A stretch of 64,000 nucleotides of DNA from Sutterella megalosphaeroides. GTDB taxonomy: Bacteria > Pseudomonadota > Gammaproteobacteria > Burkholderiales > Burkholderiaceae_F. The position numbers and the translations under genes are program-made. Below the pieces are notes generated by a model. That model saw nothing but the letters and a program-made list of their open reading frames with translations. It was not told the DNA's origin and did not search any database. Shown here in pieces: positions 36,437-56,507 of this stretch. Within the stretch, counting starts at the first letter, position 1. Each line of letters starts with the position of its first letter. The stretch is taken from positions 1,250,001-1,314,000 of the forward strand of contig NZ_AP018786.1 in NCBI RefSeq assembly GCF_003609995.1, written 5' to 3'.

Positions 36437-38107
36437 TTATTTTTGATCGAGGACCCATTCGAGCGAACGCTGAAGATCCGTCGTGAAGATGCGGTCATGA
36501 TCGACGTACGGTACTACCGTGCGGTAGGAGGCGAGGAGCTTCGACGTGCCTTCGCCCAGAGTGCGCTTTTCCGTACGGGTGCGGATGTCCATGGCCTGGG
36601 TCGTGTGGAGAATTTCGTAGGCGAAGACACCGGCCGTGCATTCGGAGAGGCGATCGAGGCGGTCTGCGACGACGTTCACGTTGGAGAAGGTTTCTTCGAT
36701 CCCGATCGAGGTCGGCACGCCGTAACCCATGACGCTGTTCGTGAGTGCCATGCCTTCCGCATAGATACCCGACATCGACTGCGCGATGTTCGCAAACCCG
36801 TCGCCGCCCTTGTTTTCAGGAGCAACGAGGTAGGTCGGGAGCTGCGTGCGGTGGCTGTCAACCAACTGGGTCGTACGCCAGGCGGAAGCGTGCATCACCT
36901 GGGCGAGCGCGCGACCGACGCTTTCCAACTGAAGCGCAAGCTGCGTGTTGTCGAAGTTGGCGCAGGAGTTGACGTGCGCGGTGGGCGAACCGGCTTCGTT
37001 CATTACGACGGCGGGAAGCTTCGAATACCAGCGGTCGGCCTTGACTTCCGTATTGACGATCGGATTGTCGGTCGTATGGTTGATCGCGGTCGTGAGCAAC
37101 GCCTTCGCCTGATCGACTTCTTCCATGGCGGCGGCAAGGATGTAGCCCGCGCTTCGGAAGGAGAGCGGGTCTTGAAGGTAGCGCTTTTCGTCCTTTTCCC
37201 AGAGGTACGACCCCTTGAGGTTCCCGAGAATGGCTTCGGACGCTTCGTGCTGCATCGGCCAGCCTTTCGTTTCGACCGTATGCCAGAGGAAGGGGGTGAC
37301 GTTGCCGTTCAGGGCTTCAAGGCTTGTCGCGACGAGTTTCGCATTGAAATTGAGCAGTTGCTCGACCTTCTTCACGGCCGTGACGGCCTGCGCTTCGCTG
37401 ACGTTCGAATTTGAGAGGATCGAAATGCCGTCAAGCCCGAACGGATGGAAGGGCTTCAGGCCGAGCTCTTTGCGGACGTCCGAAGCCTTGCGGCGTTCGC
37501 CCTTCCACATGACGTCCCATTCGCCCATGAGCGCAAGTCCGATATGGGTGGCAAAGCTCAGGTCGTTCGCGCCTTCGGAACCCTTCGAGGGAATGAGAGG
37601 CGTCACATCGTTGTTGACGTACTCGGCATAGGCGCGCGCGGCATCTTCGCTCATCGCGGTGTAGCCCGCCGCCATCTGGTTGAGGCGGATCACCATGGCC
37701 ATCTTGGCGGTGCGCTTGGGAAGGAAAGGTTCAAAGCCCGCCGCCTGAATGCGCATTTGCCGTTCGTTGAAGGCGATCGAAGCGCTACGGTTGGGTTCGT
37801 CCTCAACGCCCGCTTTTCCCTTTTCGCCGTCCGTGACGCGCTTTTCCTTGAGAGCGCCGTAATTGACGGTCAGACCGTAAATGTCGCGCCCGTCTTCGGC
37901 CGCGATGATCGGCGCCTTGTAGCCCGCACGCAGGCGCTTCGTGCCTTCGTCGGAAATTTTGACGGTTTCGCCCGGAGCGGAAATTGCCCAGAGCTCGTCA
38001 ACCGTGAGCGTGCGCCCGTCGAGCACGTGCTCGGCGGCATTGGTCGCTGCGGCACTGATCGCCAGGACGGCAACAAGAGTGAGCGGGAAGAAATGGCGGC
38101 GGTTCAT
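36437..38107 (-). CDS. Exported ammonia-lyase-fold protein A (HAL/PAL family, MIO triad missing)
   Basis: A 556-residue protein of the histidine/phenylalanine ammonia-lyase superfamily with a Sec signal (MNRRHFFPLTLVAVLAISAAATNA, cut after residue 24), which is unusual for the family. Recognisable elements are the catalytic-Tyr loop YGLTVNYG (77-84), IPSKGSEGANDLSFATH (172-188), QDPLSFR, DNPIV, and the C-terminal MDIRTR. In canonical enzymes the third element reads GSVGASGDLAPLAH and its Ala-Ser-Gly forms the MIO electrophile. Here the triad is lost and the loop is one residue shorter. The selectivity pair SH of HutH reads IQ here. Activity is thus uncertain. The start at 38107 is supported by the signal peptide. 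Confidence 0.82.
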   Translation of the reverse strand: MNRRHFFPLTLVAVLAISAAATNAAEHVLDGRTLTVDELWAISAPGETVKISDEGTKRLRAGYKAPIIAAEDGRDIYGLTVNYGALKEKRVTDGEKGKAGVEDEPNRSASIAFNERQMRIQAAGFEPFLPKRTAKMAMVIRLNQMAAGYTAMSEDAARAYAEYVNNDVTPLIPSKGSEGANDLSFATHIGLALMGEWDVMWKGERRKASDVRKELGLKPFHPFGLDGISILSNSNVSEAQAVTAVKKVEQLLNFNAKLVATSLEALNGNVTPFLWHTVETKGWPMQHEASEAILGNLKGSYLWEKDEKRYLQDPLSFRSAGYILAAAMEEVDQAKALLTTAINHTTDNPIVNTEVKADRWYSKLPAVVMNEAGSPTAHVNSCANFDNTQLALQLESVGRALAQVMHASAWRTTQLVDSHRTQLPTYLVAPENKGGDGFANIAQSMSGIYAEGMALTNSVMGYGVPTSIGIEETFSNVNVVADRLDRLSECTAGVFAYEILHTTQAMDIRTRTEKRTLGEGTSKLLASYRTVVPYVDHDRIFTTDLQRSLEWVLDQK

Positions 38108-38507
38108 CGGGTTCTCCAAATTGGTCACAAGAGAAAGAGCTGCAAAGGTGGTGTGGTCACGGCGGGTGCGATGTTTCGCGGTGTGATCGCTCCTTACAAG
38201 CGTCACTCTTTACCCCAACCGTATAAATTCATGCTACCTGTGGAACAGTCTTTGAGCTATTGGGTTAAATACGGTTGAGATTGTTACGATTTCCGATAGC
38301 GATTCGGCATACGCATCCGTCACCGGCCTCTGAGGATCGATGCGGAGGAATCCCGACGACGCTGTCGGGCGTCTTTCCCGTTCGGCTTCCCGTTCCGAGC
38401 CGCGCCCGCCGCTCCGCCGTGAAAATGCGATAATTCGTCATTCCCGTCGGGTGCCCGAACGACGGACGTACGTTGAACCCATTCTTATTGCGCGAAGGAT
38501 TTCGAGC
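38108..38507. other. AT-richer divergent region, lyase A / tilS
   Basis: About 400 bases with a low-GC core (38190-38285) that carries an inverted pair CAACCGTAT / ATACGGTTG (38216-38277). Toward tilS, an extended -10 TGCGATAAT lies at about 38426-38434. Confidence 0.55.
38216..38277. promoter_or_regulatory. Spaced inverted repeat, possible operator of lyase A
   Basis: CAACCGTAT (38216-38224) and ATACGGTTG (38269-38277) are exact inverted copies, 44 bases apart, in an AT-rich promoter-like segment about 110 bases upstream of the lyase A start. The spacing is about five helical turns centre to centre, as for cooperatively bound dimers. Confidence 0.5.
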
Positions 38508-41473: not shown

Positions 41474-42448
41474 TTACGACTGCGGCCCGATTCGTCCCGT
41501 GCGGATCTCGTCGAGTCTCAACTCCTTCTCGCCCTTTCGTACATGGGTCCAAAAGAGGCTCCTCAGCCAGACGAAGGCGGGATCCGCACTGCTTCGGCGG
41601 TGCCAGATGAGGGAAGGTTCAAGGGACGGAACGCTCGACGCGCGCCCGAGCACCACGACGGGAAGGAGCGTTGCCAGGTTTTGCGCGGTCCGCCACGGGA
41701 AGGTGAGTACCGCATCCGTTTTGAGCATCAGGAAGTAGGCCGAAATCCAGGATTCCGTCCAGAGGGTCGTGCCCGAGGTCGATGCGGGAATGACGGCGGG
41801 GCCGGGCGTCCCTTCCGCCGTCGAATCCGTGTCGGGATGAACGACGATCTGAATCCGTCGGTAGCGGGCTGCTTCCGCACGCCAGTCGTCGGTGCCGCTT
41901 TCAAGAAGCGTTTCGAGCGGGTGACCCGGGCGCACGAGGTGCACGTAGGGGGTTTTGACGAGCGGCATGTGTTCGAACTCGTCGGGAAGGTTCGCGGCGG
42001 GAAAAAGCGCAAAATCGAGGTCCCCGGCTCTCAGATGCGCGAGCGTCGTTTCGCAGTGCGTGCGAAAAGCGAGCCCCGCCTTCGGGGCCGCTTCATGGAA
42101 GGTCGAAAGCATCGGTTCGACGAGCATCGGGAAGGCGTTGTCGAGGCACGCTCCGCGAAAGACCCGATCGAGCCGTGCGGGCGCAAAGACCGCGTCGACC
42201 GTCAGGGCGCGCATGTCTTCGAGCACGTGCTCGGCGCGTTCGGCCAAAAGGAGCGCGCGATGCGTGGGCGTGAGACCGTGCCCGTGCTGCACGAAGAGGT
42301 CGTCGCGAAAGACCGTGCGTGCTTCGGCAAGAAGGCGGCTCGCGCTCGGGCCGCTGATCCCGAGCCGCTGCGCGGTTTGGCCGAGGTGACGCAGTTCGGC
42401 CAAGGTCGTGAGAAAAACGAGGAGCTCTTCGGTGATGCCGTTTTTCAT
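41474..42448 (-). CDS. LysR-family transcriptional regulator
   Basis: A 324-residue protein with an N-terminal winged helix (LVFLTTLAELRHLGQTAQRLGISGPSASRLLAEAR, residues about 9-44) and a LysR substrate-binding domain containing LRAGDLDFALFPAANLPDEFEHMPLVKTPYVHLVRPGHPL. It is transcribed away from the arylsulfate sulfotransferase gene, the classic layout for a LysR protein that controls its divergent neighbour. Its own leader carries a hairpin (42470-42499). The inducer is unknown. Confidence 0.85.
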   Translation of the reverse strand: MKNGITEELLVFLTTLAELRHLGQTAQRLGISGPSASRLLAEARTVFRDDLFVQHGHGLTPTHRALLLAERAEHVLEDMRALTVDAVFAPARLDRVFRGACLDNAFPMLVEPMLSTFHEAAPKAGLAFRTHCETTLAHLRAGDLDFALFPAANLPDEFEHMPLVKTPYVHLVRPGHPLETLLESGTDDWRAEAARYRRIQIVVHPDTDSTAEGTPGPAVIPASTSGTTLWTESWISAYFLMLKTDAVLTFPWRTAQNLATLLPVVVLGRASSVPSLEPSLIWHRRSSADPAFVWLRSLFWTHVRKGEKELRLDEIRTGRIGPQS

Positions 42449-42701: not shown

Positions 42702-44519
42702 ATGCCTCTCATGCACCGTACCGCACTGGCCGTCGCAACGGCCTGCGCCGCTTTGCCTCTCGCCGCTTTCGCCATGGGCGGCGCGTCCGGTCCGAAAACG
42801 ACCTACGAAACGCAGGGGCACTTGGGCGAAATCATCGTGAATCCCTACAAGGTGGCGCCCCTGACGGCCGTCATCCGCAACGGCGGCTACGTGATCGAAA
42901 AGGCCAAGGTGACGGTGCTTCCGAAGGCGGGCGGCGTCCCGATTTCCTACAACGTGAGCCGCCGCATGCTGCTTACGCACGGGGGCGTTCCCGTTTTCGG
43001 GCTCTATCCCGACTACGTCAATAAGGTTCGCGTCGAATACACGCGTCTTTTCAACGGCAAGTCCGAAACCTTCGACGACACGTACGACATCTACGCGTCC
43101 CCGATGTACGGCGAAGCGCAGGGGCTGCGCTTCCAGAAGTCCGCTTTCCCGCGCGTCAAGCCCGTGAAGGTCGATCCGAAGTTCAAGGACCGCCTCTACC
43201 TCCTCAACAACGCCGCGGACCTCGCGGGCAAGGCCGCGCACATGGTCTGGAACAACCCCATGGGCGGCGCTCTCGAGTGGAGCTTCTATCCGCAAAACGG
43301 CATCGTCGACACGACGGGCGAATACCGCTGGTATCTCTTTGCCGAACCGATCTACGACGTGGGCAATCCCTTCTGGGGCGGCGACATGATGGGCTTTCGT
43401 CAAACGGCCGACGGCGCCTTCACCTGGGGCTACGGTCAGCGCTACGTGAAGTACGACCTCATGGGGCGTGAAATCTGGAATCGTCCGCTTCCGATGAACT
43501 ACAACGACTTCTCGCACGCGCTCGATCCCGCTCAGAACGGGCACTTCTTCCTGCGTGTGGGGAGTTCCAACCTGAAGCTGCCCAACGGGAAGAACGTGCG
43601 CACGGTGCGCGACGTGATCGCCGAAGTGGATGCGGACGGCTACGTCGTGGACGAATTCCGTCTCTTCGACATTCTCGACCCGTATCGCTCCGACGTCATC
43701 AAGGCGCTCGATCAGGGGGCGGTGTGCCTCAACATCGACGCTTCGAAGGCCGGGAAGACCCTCTCCGAAGAAGACATCAAGGCGCTCAACGAGTCGGATC
43801 AGTTCGGCGACATCGCCGGCACGGGTGCGGGTCGCAACTGGGCCCACGTCAACTCCGTCGACTACGACCCGACCGACGACTCGATCATCATCTCCTCGCG
43901 CCACCAGTCGGCCGCGATCAAGATCGGTCGCGACAAGAAGGTGAAGTGGATCATGGGGGCGCCCCGCGGCTGGAAGGGCGAATTCGCCGACAAGGTTCTG
44001 AAGCCCGTCGACAAGAACGGCAAGCCCATCGCCTGCACGGACGCCACGTGCGAGGGCGGGTTCGATTGGACGTGGACCCAGCACACGGCCTGGCGCATCG
44101 ACGCGAAGAGCAAGCCCGGCATCGTCTACCTCTCGGTCTTCGACAACGGCGACGCTCGCGGCATGGAACAGCCCGCGCTTCCCGAAATGAAGTACAGCCG
44201 TGCGGTGGTCTACAAGATCGACGAAAAGGCGATGACGGTCGAGCAGATTTGGAGCTACGGCGAAGAGGCGGGCCACGACTGGTTCAGCCCGGTGACGTCT
44301 CTCACCGAATACCACGCCGACAAGGACTCGATCTTCGTCTATTCGGCGACGGCCGGCGCTTCGTTCGACCTCGCGACGGGGGCCTTCACCTCGGCGCCGA
44401 ACCCCTACGTGATGGAATTCAACTGGGGCGAAACGGAACCCGCGGTCGAAATGCGCGTCGAATCGACGACGGGATACCAGGCGATGCCGGTCGACATCTC
44501 GATTGCGTTCGAGAAGTAA
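42702..44519 (+). CDS. assT: Periplasmic arylsulfate sulfotransferase (AssT)
   Basis: A 605-residue exported enzyme with AAGGAG upstream. The signal MPLMHRTALAVATACAALPLAAFA is cleaved near residue 24. It is a PAPS-independent sulfotransferase that moves sulfate from one phenolic ester to another phenol through a sulfohistidine intermediate. The beta-propeller signatures of the family are visible: NWAHVNSVDYDPTDDSIIISSRHQSA, KWIMGAP, and WTQHTAW, which carry the conserved His residues of the AssT active site. Two Cys (IACTDATCEGG) match the structural disulfide, which usually needs a DsbA/DsbL partner; none is adjacent. Control by the divergent LysR is likely. Confidence 0.92.
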   Translation: MPLMHRTALAVATACAALPLAAFAMGGASGPKTTYETQGHLGEIIVNPYKVAPLTAVIRNGGYVIEKAKVTVLPKAGGVPISYNVSRRMLLTHGGVPVFGLYPDYVNKVRVEYTRLFNGKSETFDDTYDIYASPMYGEAQGLRFQKSAFPRVKPVKVDPKFKDRLYLLNNAADLAGKAAHMVWNNPMGGALEWSFYPQNGIVDTTGEYRWYLFAEPIYDVGNPFWGGDMMGFRQTADGAFTWGYGQRYVKYDLMGREIWNRPLPMNYNDFSHALDPAQNGHFFLRVGSSNLKLPNGKNVRTVRDVIAEVDADGYVVDEFRLFDILDPYRSDVIKALDQGAVCLNIDASKAGKTLSEEDIKALNESDQFGDIAGTGAGRNWAHVNSVDYDPTDDSIIISSRHQSAAIKIGRDKKVKWIMGAPRGWKGEFADKVLKPVDKNGKPIACTDATCEGGFDWTWTQHTAWRIDAKSKPGIVYLSVFDNGDARGMEQPALPEMKYSRAVVYKIDEKAMTVEQIWSYGEEAGHDWFSPVTSLTEYHADKDSIFVYSATAGASFDLATGAFTSAPNPYVMEFNWGETEPAVEMRVESTTGYQAMPVDISIAFEK

Positions 44520-50503: not shown

Positions 50504-51121
50504 TCAGCTCGCCGCGCTTTCGGAGGCGGCTTTCTCGGTGTCGTCGCTTTTGCGCTCGACATCGCTCGTCCCCGTCAAATCCGTCATCAGTGCGTAAATC
50601 TCTTCCTTCGTCTCGGCGGGAATCGTGTCGACGCCGAACTTGTGCGCGTAGAAGCACCCTTCGAGCGCCATGATCACAAGCAGCATACGGCTGCGACGGC
50701 GCTTCGGAAGGCGCAGGATGCGCGCGAAAAGCCGCGCGTACCAGGCGCGCACGGGTTCGAGCAACTCCGGATCGTGCGCCTGTTGCGAGAGAAGCTGCAC
50801 GCCCACCGAGGCCCAGCCGCGGTTGTCGCTGCTGAACTGCCGAAACCAGGAGACGAACCCAGGAACGAGCGTTTCTTCGGGGAGCCCCTCGAACTTCGCC
50901 TCGTGGCGCCGAAGTTCCCGATCGAGGTGTTCGGCGTAATCTTCGATCAAAGCGGCCTGAAGGGCGCGCTTCGTGGGAAAGTGGTACATGATGGCGCCCT
51001 TGCTTACGCCCGCCTGCTCGGCCACGCGGTCCATGCTGAGGCGCGCGATCCCGCCCGAAAGGAGCACCGCACGGGCGGCTTTGAGAAGGTCAGCTTTGGT
51101 TTTCTGAGCTTTGAGCGACAT
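50504..51121 (-). CDS. TetR-family repressor
   Basis: A 205-residue regulator. The N-terminal helix-turn-helix is classical: TKADLLKAARAVLLSGGIARLSMDRVAEQAGVSKGAIMYHFPTKRALQAALIEDY (residues about 8-62). The rest is a helical ligand-binding domain. It lies 212 bases from the flavoprotein at 51333-53090 on the same strand. Two near-identical palindromes in the divergent promoter region of that flavoprotein and lyase B are its most likely operators (inference). The ligand might be the amino acid or unsaturated acid handled by those proteins. Confidence 0.88.
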   Translation of the reverse strand: MSLKAQKTKADLLKAARAVLLSGGIARLSMDRVAEQAGVSKGAIMYHFPTKRALQAALIEDYAEHLDRELRRHEAKFEGLPEETLVPGFVSWFRQFSSDNRGWASVGVQLLSQQAHDPELLEPVRAWYARLFARILRLPKRRRSRMLLVIMALEGCFYAHKFGVDTIPAETKEEIYALMTDLTGTSDVERKSDDTEKAASESAAS

Positions 51122-51208
51122 GGCGGGTTCTTCGGATGGGGCGTTCGGGGGCTTGTCGGACGTGCGGCTGCAGGTCGGCGAAACGCCTCGGGCGCGGAAA
51201 TGAAAAAA

Positions 51209-51231
51209 GGGGCGGCCGATTCGGCCGCCCC
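51209..51231 (-). terminator. Intrinsic terminator of third flavoprotein
   Basis: GGGGCGGCC and GGCCGCCCC pair tightly; on the minus strand CTTTTTTC follows. It separates the flavoprotein from the TetR gene. Confidence 0.85.
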
Positions 51232-51332
51232 CCGAATATTAACCGAGAGGGGAGACGTGGGGGAAACCGAACGTTCTTCCTCCCGGTTCTCTTTCGAGGT
51301 CGTGCGTTTGCGGTGATGCAAACGGTCGGACT

Positions 51333-53090
51333 TTACTTCGCGGCTTCGGCGGCGGCCTTGCCGGCGATGCGACCGAAGACGATGATGTCCGTGTAGGCGT
51401 TGCCGCCGAGGCGGTTCGTGCCGTGCGTGACACCCGTCACTTCACCCGCGGCCCAGAGGCCCGGAATGACCTGACCGTCCTTCGTCAGAGCCTGCGCCTT
51501 TTCGTTGATGCGAACGCCGCCCATCGTGTGGTGGGTGGAGGGCACCGCCTTGATGACGTAGTACTTGCCCTGGCTCATGTCGACGAGGCCGCTGCGGTGG
51601 TTGAAGTCCTTGTCGTTGCCCTTGCCGGCCATCGAGGTGACGCGATCCGTCGTGGCCTTAAGCTGATCGAACGGGATCTTCGTGAAGTCGGCGATGCACT
51701 TCAGGTCGTCGCAGGTCTTCATGATGCCCTGCTTCGTGAAGGCTTCGTATTCGGTCGGGTGAGCCTTGACGGTGTTGGAGATCGCACCGATCTTGTCGTT
51801 CCAGAGAACCCAGCAATAAGCGCCCGTCTGCTTGAGGATGGCTTCGGAGAGCACGTCGCGACGTTCGAGTTCTTCGACGAAGCGCTTGCCTTCCTGGTTG
51901 AGCATGATGGCGCCGTCAAAGCGCGCGTCGGCGATGAGTTCGATCACGCCCGAGATCGGGTCGCAGATCGGGTACGTCTGGATGTAGCTCATGTTGACGA
52001 GCTCGGCACCCGCACGTTCCGCCATGTAGAGAGCTTCGCCCGTGGCGCCCGGAGCGTCGGTCGTCTTGAAGCGTTCGTCGATCTTCGGGTTGTACTTCTT
52101 CACCATTTCGGGGTTGGCACCGAAGCCGCCCGTAGCGAGCACGACGCCGCCCTTGGCATTGAAGGTGTAAGTGTTGCCGTCCATCGTGGCCTTGACGCCG
52201 ACGACGCGACCGTCCTTGTCCTTAACAAGCTCTTCGGCCTTCATGTTGGTGATGACCGGAATGCCGAGTTCGTCGGCCTTGGCCTGGAACTTCGCGATGA
52301 ATTCCGTGCCGGTGTGGCCGACCGGAATCAGAGCGCGCTTGCGGCTGTGGCCGCCGAAGAAGAAGAGGTTGTCGTCTTCGAACTTGACGCCGAGGTAGTC
52401 GCGGCACCAGAGCGCGGCGTCGAGCGCCTGATGGGTCATGACGTTGATGACCTTCATGTCGCCCTTCTTGTCGCCGCCCTTGTAGGTGTCTTCGGCGTGG
52501 AGTTCGGGCGAGTCGTCGGTGATGCCGAGCTTGGGCTGGACCCAGTTGCGGGCCACGTTCATTTCGGCGCCCGAAATGAGGGAGTTGCCGCCGACGGCGG
52601 GCATCTTTTCAAGGAGGACGACGTTCGCACCGGCGTTCTTCGCTTCGATCGCGGCCGAGAAGCCCGCGCCGCCCGCACCGATCACGACCACGTCATAGGA
52701 GGATTCCTTCGGGAGGTTGACGACGGCCTTCTTGAGGGCCTTCTTGTCGGCCTTCGAGAGCGTCACGCCCGCCTTCTTGGCGGCGTCCTTAACGGCGTCG
52801 AGGAAACCCTTCGAGGAGAAGGTGGCGCCCGAGATGACGTCGAGGTCGGCGGAGTTCGACTGAACGACGTGATCCTTCAGGTCCGTGAAGACTTTCTTCG
52901 CGAGAACGGGGTTTTCCTGGTTCTTCACGACTTTGATGTCGGTGATGCGGCCTTCGTCGAACGTGACGGCAACCGTGATATCGCCGTGCTTGCCGACGCC
53001 CGTGCCTTCCTGGGTAACGGGGGCGGCAAAAGCCGTGACGGCGAAAAGACCGCCGATCGCGGCGGTAAGAAGCGTGGTACGCAACTTCAT
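51333..53090 (-). CDS. Periplasmic FMN/FAD reductase, urocanate-reductase-like
   Basis: A 585-residue exported flavoprotein with a Sec signal cleaved near residue 22 (AFA). The FMN domain carries SGAT with flavinylation Thr90; the FAD domain starts VVVIGAGGAGFSAA (135-148). Catalytic Arg (RRDVLSEAIL), His (HHTMGGV) and Arg (GTNRLGGNA) of the fumarate reductase family are kept. The substrate-site His of fumarate reductases (QTHP) is Tyr here (IQTYPICDP). Tyr or Met at this position is the published signature that separates urocanate reductases (UrdA) from fumarate reductases; the alignment here is by eye. No heme motif is present. It is divergent from lyase B and has a TAGAAT -10 candidate at 53157-53152. 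Confidence 0.85.
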   Translation of the reverse strand: MKLRTTLLTAAIGGLFAVTAFAAPVTQEGTGVGKHGDITVAVTFDEGRITDIKVVKNQENPVLAKKVFTDLKDHVVQSNSADLDVISGATFSSKGFLDAVKDAAKKAGVTLSKADKKALKKAVVNLPKESSYDVVVIGAGGAGFSAAIEAKNAGANVVLLEKMPAVGGNSLISGAEMNVARNWVQPKLGITDDSPELHAEDTYKGGDKKGDMKVINVMTHQALDAALWCRDYLGVKFEDDNLFFFGGHSRKRALIPVGHTGTEFIAKFQAKADELGIPVITNMKAEELVKDKDGRVVGVKATMDGNTYTFNAKGGVVLATGGFGANPEMVKKYNPKIDERFKTTDAPGATGEALYMAERAGAELVNMSYIQTYPICDPISGVIELIADARFDGAIMLNQEGKRFVEELERRDVLSEAILKQTGAYCWVLWNDKIGAISNTVKAHPTEYEAFTKQGIMKTCDDLKCIADFTKIPFDQLKATTDRVTSMAGKGNDKDFNHRSGLVDMSQGKYYVIKAVPSTHHTMGGVRINEKAQALTKDGQVIPGLWAAGEVTGVTHGTNRLGGNAYTDIIVFGRIAGKAAAEAAK

Positions 53091-53163
53091 GATGGTTTCT
53101 CTCCAACGTGGGGTCCGAGCAGCACTCGGGTCCGTTCTTAATTCGGAAGTGATTCTAGACGAA

Positions 53164-53177
53164 ACCGACTGGTCGGT
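53164..53177. promoter_or_regulatory. Palindromic operator 1, probable TetR site
   Basis: ACCGACTGGTCGGT is a 14-bp palindrome except for the central TG. It lies directly upstream of the flavoprotein -10 (TAGAAT at 53157-53152), so bound repressor would block RNA polymerase. Confidence 0.65.
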
Positions 53178-53280
53178 ATGGTGGTACTTTCACCTACTCG
53201 AGTGGGAGATGCAAAGAAGAAAATCATAAAAAACAAGTGCAAGCCGATTTTCAGCTGAGCTCCCTAGGGGAAAACATCAG

Positions 53281-53294
53281 ACCGACCGGTCGGA
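53281..53294. promoter_or_regulatory. Palindromic operator 2, probable TetR site
   Basis: ACCGACCGGTCGGA is a second copy of the same motif with the perfect core CCGACCGGTCGG. It ends nine bases before the TATGAT of the lyase B promoter and covers its -35 position. Confidence 0.65.
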
Positions 53295-53483
53295 CTTTTG
53301 GGTATGATTCGGTTCGCGCGCCGGGTTGACTCCCGACCGACGAGCCTCGGCCGATAGCTCCCGAGCGGTCGACCGACCTCGGCGCGTTCATTTTTATTCG
53401 GAGGCTTCGCTCGCGGACCGTTTTCGGGCGGAGCTCCTCCGGAAGAGCTTTCGAACTTTCGACCGTACAAAGGACACCGTACA

Positions 53484-55136
53484 ATGCAGCTCAAACCCAT
53501 CGTTATCGGACTTGCCATGTCGCTTGCCGCCCTTTCCGCCAACGCCACCGTGACCCTCACCGGGAAGACGCTCACCCAGGACGAAGCCTGGCGCGTTGCC
53601 GAAGGCGAAGAAGTCGCTATCGCTCCCGAAGCCATGAAGCAGGTAACGGATTCGAACCGCCTCGTCATGACCGCCGCCCGCCAGGGCGTTGAAATCTACG
53701 GTCTCACGGTGGGCGTCGGTCTCAACAAGGATCACAAGCTCTTCGAAGCCTCGGGCGAAATGACCGAAACCGCCCGCCGGGCGAGCATCGACTTCAACCG
53801 CAACATCCTGCGCTCGCACTCCGTCGGGTACGGCGCTCACCTCCCGAAGGAAACCGCGCGTCTCGCGATGGTCGTGCGTCTCAACACGCTCCTGACGGGC
53901 CGCTCGGGCGCTCAGCCCTACGTGGCGGAGCTCTACCGCGACTTCTTGAATAAAGGCATCACGCCCGTGATCCCGACCCGCGGCTCGATCGGCGACGCGG
54001 ACATCACGCTCGCTTCGCACGTGGGCTCCGTCATGATGGGCGAATGGCGCGCCGAAGTGGACGGCAAGGTCGTCTCGGGCGCCGAAGCGCTCCGCATGAA
54101 GGGCATTCGCCCGCTCGTTCCGGAAGGCAAGGACGGTCTTGCGATTCTTTCCACCAACTCCGTCGGCATCGCGATGACGATGAGCGCCATGCGCGAAATG
54201 CGCCGCGTGCTTCAGCTCTCGCCCGTTGTCTACGGCCTTACGCTCGAAGGCATGAACGGGAACGTCGCCCCCTTCCTCGCTCAGACCGTGAAGAGCCATC
54301 CTCTCGCGGGGCTCTCCGAAGCCGCGACCGAAATGCGCGCCACTCTGAAGGGCTCCTACCTCTGGGAAAAGGATCCGACCCGTGCGCTCCAGGATCCCCT
54401 TTCCTTCCGCACGACGGTCTACACGATCTCCGAAGCCAAGCGCGCTTTGAACGATCTTGACGAACTCGTCAACGTTCAGATCAACAGCTCCGACGACAAT
54501 CCGGGCGTCATTCTCAACGCCTCGAAGGAGGACCTCGAATCGAGCCAGGTCGCGCAGTACTTCGTGAAGGGCGAAGGCCTCGAAGGCGCCATCATTCCGA
54601 GCGCGAACTTCGAACCGCTCCCGATCGCGATTGCCGCCGAACGCGCCGCGATCGCCCTCGGTCACGTCGCTCACAATTCGCTCCACCGCACGCTACGTCT
54701 CGACGAAGACCGCTTCTCGGGCCTCTCGCGCTACCTCGCCGGCCCCAACAACACGGCCGGTCACTCGTTCGGCGCGACCGAAGACTCGATGGTCTCGATC
54801 TACGCGGAAAACGTCGATCTCGCGAACCCCGTGTCGCTCGCGAGCACGCCGGTTGAAGGCAACATCGAAGACTCCGCTTCGAACCTTCCGCGCGTGGCGA
54901 ACCGTCTCGAGCGCAGCGCCTCGAACCTGATCGACCTCTACGCGATGGAAATGCTCCACAACACCCAGGCGATCGACCTCCGGAAGATGAAGCGCTCCGA
55001 CGTGAAGCTCTCCGAAAAGACGCAGGCCCTCTACGACGCCTACCGCAAGGTGGTACCCTTTGTTGAAAAGGACCGTATCTTCTCCGAAGACCTCGAAGCG
55101 GGCGTGAAGCTCTTGAAGAGCTACGAAGTGAAATAA
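53484..55136 (+). CDS. Exported ammonia-lyase-fold protein B (HAL/PAL family, MIO triad missing)
   Basis: A 550-residue member of the aromatic amino acid lyase superfamily with a Sec signal (MQLKPIVIGLAMSLAALSANA, cut after residue 21). Visible elements are YGLTVGVG (72-79), ILRSHSVGYGAHL with Ser111-His112 matching the HutH selectivity pair SH, IPTRGSIGDADITLASH (163-179), QDPLSFR, DDNPGV, and a C-terminal AIDLRKMKR. The MIO triad Ala-Ser-Gly is replaced by Asp-Ala-Asp with a one-residue shorter loop. The HutH Asn195 and Tyr280 positions also differ. The retained SH pair hints at histidine as ligand. It is divergent from a urocanate-reductase-like gene and probably under TetR control. Enzymatic activity must be tested. 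Confidence 0.82.
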   Translation: MQLKPIVIGLAMSLAALSANATVTLTGKTLTQDEAWRVAEGEEVAIAPEAMKQVTDSNRLVMTAARQGVEIYGLTVGVGLNKDHKLFEASGEMTETARRASIDFNRNILRSHSVGYGAHLPKETARLAMVVRLNTLLTGRSGAQPYVAELYRDFLNKGITPVIPTRGSIGDADITLASHVGSVMMGEWRAEVDGKVVSGAEALRMKGIRPLVPEGKDGLAILSTNSVGIAMTMSAMREMRRVLQLSPVVYGLTLEGMNGNVAPFLAQTVKSHPLAGLSEAATEMRATLKGSYLWEKDPTRALQDPLSFRTTVYTISEAKRALNDLDELVNVQINSSDDNPGVILNASKEDLESSQVAQYFVKGEGLEGAIIPSANFEPLPIAIAAERAAIALGHVAHNSLHRTLRLDEDRFSGLSRYLAGPNNTAGHSFGATEDSMVSIYAENVDLANPVSLASTPVEGNIEDSASNLPRVANRLERSASNLIDLYAMEMLHNTQAIDLRKMKRSDVKLSEKTQALYDAYRKVVPFVEKDRIFSEDLEAGVKLLKSYEVK

Positions 55137-55213: not shown

Positions 55214-55256
55214 GTAGTCTTTGCCCGCTCGACCGCACCACCACCCTCGTTTTCTC

Positions 55257-56507
55257 ATGACCGCATTGCGTTTGCGCTCCGACGTCTTCGTGACGATCTC
55301 GGGCGCCGGCACGCCGTTTCTCGACGGCTTTTCGACTGCATCCGCCGCTTTTTTGATTCTGCTGGTTCCCGGGCTCACGTCGCTTGAAACCGCGCTCATG
55401 ACGAGTCTCTTTCTCGCGGGATCGTTCGCGGGCTCGCTCGTGGCGGGACCGATTGCGGACCGCTTCGGTCGGCGCGGGCTCTTTGCGGGGGCGGCGGCCG
55501 GGATCCTCGCGCTCACGCTTCTCGCCCGCGCGCTTCCCGAGGTGAGCGTCATTCTCGCGATGCGCTTTTTGACGGGGTTTTTGGTCGGGGGCGACTACCC
55601 CGTCTCGCAGGCGATCGTCACGGAATCCGTCTCGCCCGAACGGCGCACGCGGGCTCTGGCCGTCATGATGCTCGCGTGGAATGTCGGCGCTCTCTCGGCC
55701 GTCGTTACGGCGCTCCCCGTACTGCTTGCCGACCGCTCGTGGCTCTTTTTCTGGACCGTGCAGGCCGCGGTGGCGGGGATCCTCTTTTTGATGCGCCTGC
55801 GCGTTGCGGAGTCCTCCGAGTGGCTGCGCGAGCGCGACAAGGGGGAGAAAAAGGTTGAGGACCGTGAAACGTCGTCCGAAAGGGAGGCGCTTACGGCCGA
55901 ACCTTCCGAAAGCCGTTCCGGCAAGCGCGCCTACCGCCGCAATCTTGTCTTTTGTGCGGGCTTCTGGCTCTGCCAGACCGTGCCCGTCACGGTGATGATG
56001 TTCTATGCGGGCCGCATCATCGAAATCCTCACGGGAACGAACGGTCCCGTGACGCACATGCTGCTTCTTTACGGGTTCTTCCTCGTCGGGGCGATCCCGA
56101 CGCTCTTTCCCGTCGTCGCCTCTCGCCCGAGGACCGTTCTCCTCACGACCTACGTCGCGATGTTTATGGGCCTGGCGCTCGTTGCTTTCGGCGGGAGCGA
56201 CACGGCGGCCTCGGCGGGGTTCGTGCTTTTCGCCTTTGCCTACGGGCTGCAGGCGCCGCTTGACTTCGTGTACCCGAATCTCCTTTTCCCCACGGCGATC
56301 CGCGCTCGGGCCGTGGGGCTCGTGACCGCGCTCGCGCGCGTCGGGGCGACGGCATCCGCTTTTGCGTTCCCGCTTCTCCTGGAAGATTTCGGCGCGCCGG
56401 CGCTCTTCGCTGGCGGTCTCGGGCTGCTCGCCTCGGGGTTTTTACTCGGACTGCTCCTTGCGCCCCGCGATCGGGCCCTCGGTGCGTCTGTGAATCTGAA
56501 AGAATAA
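55257..56507 (+). CDS. Major facilitator superfamily transporter
   Basis: A 416-residue inner-membrane carrier with about twelve hydrophobic helices. The MFS signature between helices 2 and 3 is GPIADRFGRRGLF, and helix 4 contains RFLTGFLVGGDYPVSQAIVTE, resembling the sugar/metabolite:H+ symporter and aromatic-acid transporter families. A charged loop (about residues 185-220) separates the halves. A substrate for the neighbouring lyase/reductase system is an attractive guess but is not shown by sequence. The ATG at 55257 is preferred to an in-frame upstream start. Confidence 0.85.
   Translation: MTALRLRSDVFVTISGAGTPFLDGFSTASAAFLILLVPGLTSLETALMTSLFLAGSFAGSLVAGPIADRFGRRGLFAGAAAGILALTLLARALPEVSVILAMRFLTGFLVGGDYPVSQAIVTESVSPERRTRALAVMMLAWNVGALSAVVTALPVLLADRSWLFFWTVQAAVAGILFLMRLRVAESSEWLRERDKGEKKVEDRETSSEREALTAEPSESRSGKRAYRRNLVFCAGFWLCQTVPVTVMMFYAGRIIEILTGTNGPVTHMLLLYGFFLVGAIPTLFPVVASRPRTVLLTTYVAMFMGLALVAFGGSDTAASAGFVLFAFAYGLQAPLDFVYPNLLFPTAIRARAVGLVTALARVGATASAFAFPLLLEDFGAPALFAGGLGLLASGFLLGLLLAPRDRALGASVNLKE

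Follow-up and report, generated by a model that had tools for sequence, protein, structure and literature searches.

A lyase and a flavoprotein reductase, both apparently exported, stand back to back in Sutterella megalosphaeroides, and the question raised by this locus is which compound the first enzyme would hand to the second. The locus lies in a stretch of 64,000 nucleotides (contig NZ_AP018786.1, positions 1,250,001 to 1,314,000), here called the window, within which positions are counted unless another contig is named. The source genome is a single contig of 2.73 Mb with a completeness rating of 96%. Three genes are concerned: a TetR-family regulator (50504-51121, minus strand; open frame, Pfam TetR_N), a UrdA-type periplasmic flavoprotein of 585 residues (51333-53090, minus strand; open frame, Pfam FMN_bind at residues 33-104 and FAD_binding_2 at 133-564), and a 550-residue protein of the histidine/phenylalanine ammonia-lyase (HAL/PAL) fold, which we call LyA (53484-55136, plus strand; open frame, Pfam Lyase_aromatic, PF00221). 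The urdA and LyA genes are divergent, with a gap of 393 bp between them. An earlier note on this DNA had given the same coordinates, frames, divergent arrangement and adjoining TetR gene, and both the frames and the Pfam matches agree with it. Our joint reading, which we regard as evenly balanced, is that periplasmic LyA would convert hercynine to urocanate and trimethylamine, and the UrdA-type enzyme would then reduce urocanate to imidazole propionate in a respiratory step under TetR control.

The reductase closely resembles the urocanate reductase UrdA of Shewanella. Its best match is the UrdA structure 6t85 (E = 7.4e-175), with 59% identity over the aligned flavin adenine dinucleotide (FAD) domain, and it equals UrdA at all ten site positions compared (177, 243, 245, 373, 388, 390, 391, 411, 520 and 560). 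The UrdA paper (PMC7921117) covers these positions except 520. It places the urocanate imidazole within hydrogen-bonding distance of Glu177 and Asp388, describes the variants D388A, R411A and R560A as inactive, and gives Tyr373 as the mark of UrdA where fumarate reductases have His; in the same paper, Glu177 is said not to be conserved among gut UrdA proteins and Tyr373 to make no substrate contact. By alignment the reductase holds R411, R560 and D388 (51927-51929, minus strand), whose UrdA counterpart contacts the imidazole (PMC7921117). The signature Tyr also stands where the earlier note had put it, since Y373 (51972-51974, minus strand) aligns with Y373 of UrdA and with a His of Fcc3. Other UrdA features are present too, namely the flavin mononucleotide (FMN)-binding domain, a signal peptide and, elsewhere in the genome, a flavinylation gene (ApbE). 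The stretch DVISGATFSS, its letters read directly, is by its consensus the likely FMN site. All ten UrdA residues are kept in 24 of 25 related reductases; the remaining one is truncated where its contig ends, and its eight readable positions agree as well. Five of these 25 belong to a second UrdA-type paralogue that shares 56-62% identity with the window reductase. From the alignments, the identity as a urocanate reductase, which the earlier note had also proposed, appears well supported. The source genome itself codes for this second UrdA-type reductase (C1:1565877-1567592, plus strand; locus L175), which is about 60% identical to the first and keeps all ten residues. Genes similar to it were seen in four other genomes (G001, G004, G005 and G009).

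For LyA, the HAL/PAL fold assigned in the earlier note stands with the PF00221 match, and the ammonia-lyase function that it attached to this fold does not. The Ala-Ser-Gly tripeptide that cyclises to 4-methylideneimidazole-5-one (MIO) is missing in the alignment. At its place, where ammonia-lyases have GSVGASGD, LyA has GSIGDAD (residues 167-173; 53982-54002, plus strand), one residue shorter and with no Ser there. The tripeptide is found in all 14 ammonia-lyase (HAL) controls, which belong to the same order as the source genome, and at the MIO place in none of 97 lyase open reading frames (ORFs) above 100 bits, several of which are one gene reached by two routes. One of the 97 (L131:16608-18203) groups with the HAL controls in a wider tree, and another (L130) holds the letters ASG before its GTVG motif, not at the MIO place, and was counted as without. 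Against the hutH model TIGR01225, LyA scores 254.8 bits, under the curated cut-off of 539 bits. Its nearest solved relative by sequence is the ergothionase of Treponema denticola (E = 3.1e-83), followed by tyrosine aminomutase (E = 3.4e-45) and histidine ammonia-lyase (E = 3.1e-43). An AlphaFold2 model of LyA (mean predicted local distance difference test score 89.4, built on an alignment of 29 window and locus proteins) likewise has ergothionase as its best predicted fold match, with a Foldseek E of 5.5e-35 and, in VIA-align, a Z of 44.6 at a root-mean-square deviation of 1.9 over 489 aligned residues; the next entry has a Z of 41.4. The Ser-His pair that had been taken as selecting histidine is indeed kept (S111-H112). 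However, the MIO-less ergothionase 6s7j has the same pair, which is therefore no marker of histidine ammonia-lyase. With no Ala-Ser-Gly, a hutH score below the cut-off, and ergothionase nearest by sequence and fold, we rejected LyA as a histidine ammonia-lyase. No MIO-type lyase was found in the source genome, whose three PF00221 matches all lack Ala-Ser-Gly, and our search of this genome found no urocanase.

Ammonia is a poor leaving group when MIO is absent. For a lyase without MIO a quaternary-amine (betaine) substrate is therefore expected, with a tertiary-amine leaving group such as trimethylamine, and by its sequence LyA should not release ammonia from histidine. Ergothionase does without MIO and releases trimethylamine from ergothioneine, according to PMC13405746. 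Because the substrate of UrdA is urocanate, the betaine of choice would be the one that yields urocanate on loss of trimethylamine, which is hercynine (N-alpha-trimethylhistidine, or histidine betaine). In the proposed mechanism LyA, as a periplasmic MIO-less lyase of the ergothionase family, would have as its substrate the betaine of an imidazole amino acid, hercynine being the most likely one, and would eliminate trimethylamine from it to give urocanate. The UrdA-type flavoprotein would then draw electrons from the quinone pool, probably through the single NapC/CymA-type cytochrome of the genome, and reduce urocanate to imidazole propionate, so that this anaerobic respiratory step would take place wholly outside the cytoplasm. 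One ApbE gene and one NapC-type cytochrome gene are present in the source genome. The earlier idea of a periplasmic route from an amino acid through an enoate to a saturated acid survives in this form as a proposal for an amino-acid-derived enoate, without its ammonia-lyase step. Hercynine (trimethyl histidine) is the compound from which ergothioneine is biosynthesised, and it also appears as a metabolite once ergothioneine has been taken in (PMC5785509 and PMC7653990).

Export of both proteins, also claimed in the earlier note, agrees with their N-termini, which read as plain Sec-type signal peptides. In the reductase this is residues 1-22 (53025-53090, minus strand), read directly as MKLRTTLLTAAIGGLFAVTAFA followed by APV. 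In LyA it is residues 1-21 (53484-53546, plus strand), MQLKPIVIGLAMSLAALSANA followed by TVT, with cleavage predicted after ANA by eye and by a hydrophobicity script, which LyA passes; this check is a home-made hydrophobicity rule, not SignalP. By the same simple script, LyA and the two further PF00221 proteins of the genome, LyB and LyC, all have hydrophobic N-terminal signals, while none of the 14 ammonia-lyase controls passed.

LyB is the protein against which the features of LyA can best be judged. Its gene (C1:845475; L034:9476-11140) follows that of a different flavin reductase on the same strand. The partner of LyB is 34% identical to the window reductase, has QLGPW instead of QTYP and lacks D388. 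Two LyB partners from outside the Sutterellaceae were compared, those of Shewanella ANA-3 and an Escherichia sp.; they share 55% and 57% identity with the LyB partner of this genome and 30% and 31% with the LyA partner. LyB and its reductase (L034:7320-11140; C1:843319-847139) form a candidate respiratory pair from ergothioneine to thiourocanate. The LyB pair also occurs in Shewanella (e.g. L114, strain ANA-3), Ferrimonas, Citrobacter, Hafnia, Leminorella and one Escherichia sp.; with the pair of Escherichia sp. MOD1-EC7003 as the query, no match was found in 5,426 complete E. coli genomes at megablast sensitivity.

A careful tree of 36 lyases, built after removal of the four pocket columns, groups the seven LyA proteins in one clade (100/100) and the eight Sutterellaceae LyB proteins in another (90/85), and joins the two in a 15-row clade (96/90) apart from 21 others including the LyB of Shewanella, Ferrimonas and enterics. 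A quick tree of 67 rows, which carries a long-branch warning, likewise unites LyA and Sutterellaceae LyB in a single clade and separates six HAL controls, among which one Agrobacterium protein falls. LyA is thus a paralogue of LyB, and the simplest reading of the trees would be a duplication in the Sutterellaceae followed by a change of partner.

Among 7 LyA, 8 Sutterellaceae LyB and 19 other LyB sequences, 9 of 527 positions split LyA cleanly from LyB (71, 120, 171, 407, 417, 433, 434, 458 and 466). Four of these lie at or beside the expected active site: E171D in the old MIO loop, Q433E, K434D and A458E, the last three of which make the expected LyA site more acidic. The T. denticola ergothionase carries the LyB letters at all four. 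At the adjacent, hence not independent, positions 433 and 434, Gln-Lys (Gln382-Lys383 in the chain numbering of 6s7j) is found in all 8 Sutterellaceae LyB and in all 19 others used, and Glu433-Asp434 (54780-54785, plus strand) in all seven full-length LyA. Glu458 (54855-54857, plus strand) replaces the Ala of LyB and ergothionase, and Glu462 (54867-54869, plus strand) is conserved. In the alignment with P. putida HAL, positions 434, 458 and 462 of LyA fall on V386, S410 and E414, columns expected from HAL/PAL work to line the substrate pocket. The ergothionase Lys383 is reportedly important for catalysis. Loss of this Lys together with the acidic gain would fit an unsubstituted imidazole better than a thione. 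Over the 97 ORFs the residues at the Lys column are K in 72, D in 13, Q in 6, A in 4, V in 1 and Y in 1.

Is the pairing of LyA with urdA more than a coincidence of one genome? Adjacency in the source genome alone was rejected as proof, since about 56 long PF00890 matches occur there, and conserved adjacency elsewhere was used instead. With 64 PF00890 matches in 2.73 Mb in all, the genome has a very large set of flavin reductases. A scan of genome contigs with the lyase alignment, in which the best 80 of 105 matches were taken, gave 78 loci. In 56 of them a flavin reductase of more than 100 bits stands within 1.5 kb of the lyase (28 Shewanella, 7 Ferrimonas, 12 Sutterellaceae, 7 enteric, 1 Marinobacter and 1 Paraferrimonas), although these are not 56 independent events; in the 1.5-kb flanks of the 14 ammonia-lyase controls there is none. 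The 22 unpaired loci belong to Achromobacter, Bordetella, Polaromonas, rhizobia and relatives, actinobacteria, Enterococcus malodoratus, one Ferrimonas copy, and various metagenome-assembled genomes (MAGs) and others. LyA-type loci among the matches listed are all from Sutterellaceae: the window, S. seckii, a Duodenibacillus MAG, Mesosutterella porci, Turicimonas muris, Parasutterella excrementihominis and P. muris. Frame-broken copies stand beside open urdA and tetR genes in S. massiliensis (L183/L084) and in G010 (L187), a fragmented assembly of 79% completeness in which an assembly error is possible. In all nine LyA loci, seven with open full-length LyA and two frame-broken, the neighbour is UrdA-type, as the earlier note had expected of relatives, and this adjacency is more than chance. 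The two genes are divergent in seven of the nine and on the same strand in the two Parasutterella.

The urdA-type genes are more widespread than LyA. At E <= 1e-120 they occur in 18 of 61 genomes (the source and 60 relatives), including all 12 of the genus, while LyA is open in two of these 12 and broken in two. Twelve urdA loci have no adjoining LyA, among them L192 of S. seckii, whose LyA sits elsewhere; the ten residues are complete in 11 of these loci, and the other is truncated. With the same site in its absence, UrdA would have a job without LyA, and LyA would most simply supply the ordinary UrdA substrate, urocanate. One S. seckii contig carries both the LyA and the LyB pair, separated by about 3 kb, which argues for two substrates and would be expected if these occur together.

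The regulator and the neighbouring transporter were followed over the same loci. We propose the TetR protein as a repressor of the divergent promoters that acts at two CCGACYGGTCGG sites; its role, like its ligand, is what we infer from the arrangement. Candidate operators from the motif scan are CCGACTGGTCGG (53165-53176), 75 bp upstream of the urdA start, and CCGACCGGTCGG (53282-53293), a perfect palindrome on the LyA side. With at most one mismatch, the window holds the palindrome CCGACYGGTCGG at two sites, and both fall in the LyA-urdA gap; counted over both strands these are 4 matches, where shuffled sequence gives a mean of 2.6, so that the count alone is unremarkable and it is the location that matters. 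The pattern ACCGACYGGTCGG is found three times in the whole genome, twice in this gap, and its reversed control pattern not at all. Of 21 urdA loci, 11 have a site with at most one mismatch 60-489 bp ahead of the urdA start, and a TetR gene is near in 10 of these 11 and in 4 of the 10 without a site. None was found at the four loci of the UrdA paralogue that were scanned. Eight of the nine urdA loci with LyA have a TetR gene near. Downstream of LyA is a gene of the major facilitator superfamily (MFS; 55221-56507, plus strand), by family match weakly like the aromatic acid/H+ symport family. An MFS gene is near LyA in five of nine LyA loci, with a fragment in a sixth (G010), and in none of the 12 urdA loci without LyA; of the other three LyA loci, two have contigs that end close by.

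Several points weigh against the hercynine route. We infer both the activity of LyA and hercynine as its substrate from sequence, and the pocket assignments come from alignment and HAL/PAL enzymology. LyA is without the ergothionase Lys, so its chemistry could differ. In mouse tissue the basal level of hercynine is some 100-fold lower than that of ergothioneine (PMC5785509). LyA is broken in two of the four genus members that have it and is dispensable in this sense. On the regulatory side, the operator site is missing at 10 of the 21 urdA loci, a TetR gene is near only 6 of the 12 urdA loci without LyA (one of them cut by a contig end), and the third genomic copy of ACCGACYGGTCGG lies by unrelated genes, judged by eye as Crp/Fnr-like and asparaginase-like.

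Other readings of LyA can be placed on this evidence. It might act on a different imidazole or aromatic amino-acid derivative, from which it would expel a tertiary amine or some other good leaving group, the adjacent reductase taking the product. The several residues at the Lys column make it plausible that the family spans several substrates, but all the urocanate-site residues compared are present in the partner, so that only urocanate-like enoates come into question as the product, and we consider this reading unlikely. About as unlikely is a second ergothionase, in which LyA would split ergothioneine into thiourocanate and trimethylamine and the UrdA-type enzyme would reduce thiourocanate. 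Ergothionase is the nearest solved relative, and thiourocanic acid from ergothioneine is reported to support growth and adenosine triphosphate synthesis of Bacteroides xylanisolvens (stated in PMC13405746). However, LyB in the same genome keeps the ergothionase Gln-Lys pair and has its own, different reductase, while LyA has Glu-Asp and a partner with the full urocanate site that occurs also without LyA. That LyA is no longer an enzyme, being a binding protein or decaying, is improbable: the frame-broken copies of S. massiliensis and G010, with urdA and tetR open next to them (and, for G010, with the possibility of an assembly error), would fit it, but LyA is open in seven genomes of five genera and its active-site columns are strongly conserved. 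The model of the earlier note, a periplasmic ammonia-lyase that supplies the reductase from histidine or an aromatic amino acid, for which the PF00221 fold and the Ser-His pair might speak, is very improbable with no Ala-Ser-Gly and hence no MIO, a score of less than half the hutH cut-off, and a Ser-His pair shared with ergothionase.

If the hercynine reading is true, one dietary compound would give both trimethylamine, the precursor of trimethylamine N-oxide, and imidazole propionate, without histidine, cytoplasmic HutH or uptake. This would also account for the supply of urocanate to UrdA in a bacterium without HutH. Imidazole propionate is raised in type 2 diabetes according to PMC7921117. 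The locus would then represent a new microbial respiration on a mushroom-type dietary compound, yielding two disease-linked metabolites at once. More broadly, it may be the first hercynine respiratory pathway (trimethylamine elimination to urocanate, then imidazole propionate) and part of a wider, unrecognised class of modules of an exported betaine lyase and an enoate reductase, with at least three lyase types (LyA, LyB and LyC) that each pair with a reductase type of their own, in gut Sutterellaceae, Shewanella, Ferrimonas and enterics, and with LyA arising from LyB by few acidic pocket substitutions and a partner change; to this wider claim we give somewhat less than even credence. In the titles and abstract openings listed, with most subscription papers outside the search, neither a hercynine trimethylamine-lyase nor a periplasmic lyase-UrdA pair was named.

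The third lyase, LyC (36437-38206, minus strand, likely start 38107; PF00221 match), lies in the window outside the LyA pair. Its residues in the Gln-Lys columns are Ala-Gln, and it lacks the Ser-His pair; no reductase was found within 1.5 kb of it, and its neighbour is, by eye, a C69-type dipeptidase. Orthologues in Turicimonas, Parasutterella and one Shewanella stand downstream of a third reductase type, with two in tandem in Turicimonas. Another group of MIO-less lyases (L131:8869-10584, L132, L133 and L135) has Glu-Ala at these columns and N-terminal signals, and our guess is that they are possibly ergothioneine sulfonate lyases. A plasmid search for LyA-like proteins (E limit 1e-60) gave 32 of 72,556 records, all below 60% identity and 26 of them from Sinorhizobium, some annotated hutH. 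Relatives of 44% identity on S. meliloti plasmids, counted with the Glu-Ala group, are annotated hutH in some records. Elsewhere in the window, 42702-44519 (plus strand) codes for an exported arylsulfate sulfotransferase-like protein with a LysR-type gene nearby (41474-42448, minus strand), both judged by eye from the translations.

Four known systems come closest to the LyA-UrdA pair. With the T. denticola ergothionase (6s7j/6s7q) LyA shares the MIO-less HAL/PAL fold and the Tyr72, His112 and Glu462 columns. However, the two are 37% identical, Gln-Lys is changed to Glu-Asp and Ala to Glu458, the partner of LyA is a urocanate reductase, and LyA has a signal peptide while the ergothionase chain as crystallised has none. 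HutH has the same fold and the Tyr, His and Glu active-site columns in common with LyA, which differs in lacking the MIO tripeptide, in being exported and in scoring below the hutH cut-off. The UrdA of Shewanella oneidensis (6t85) is like the window reductase in its FMN_bind and FAD domains, signal peptide and ten site residues; the two are 59% identical, and the window gene adjoins a MIO-less lyase and a TetR gene. A parallel in gene arrangement is LyB with its flavin reductase in Sutterellaceae, Shewanella, Ferrimonas and Enterobacterales, again an exported MIO-less lyase, paralogous to LyA, beside a flavin reductase; unlike the LyA pair, it keeps the ergothionase Gln-Lys in the lyase and has QLGPW, not QTYP, in the reductase.

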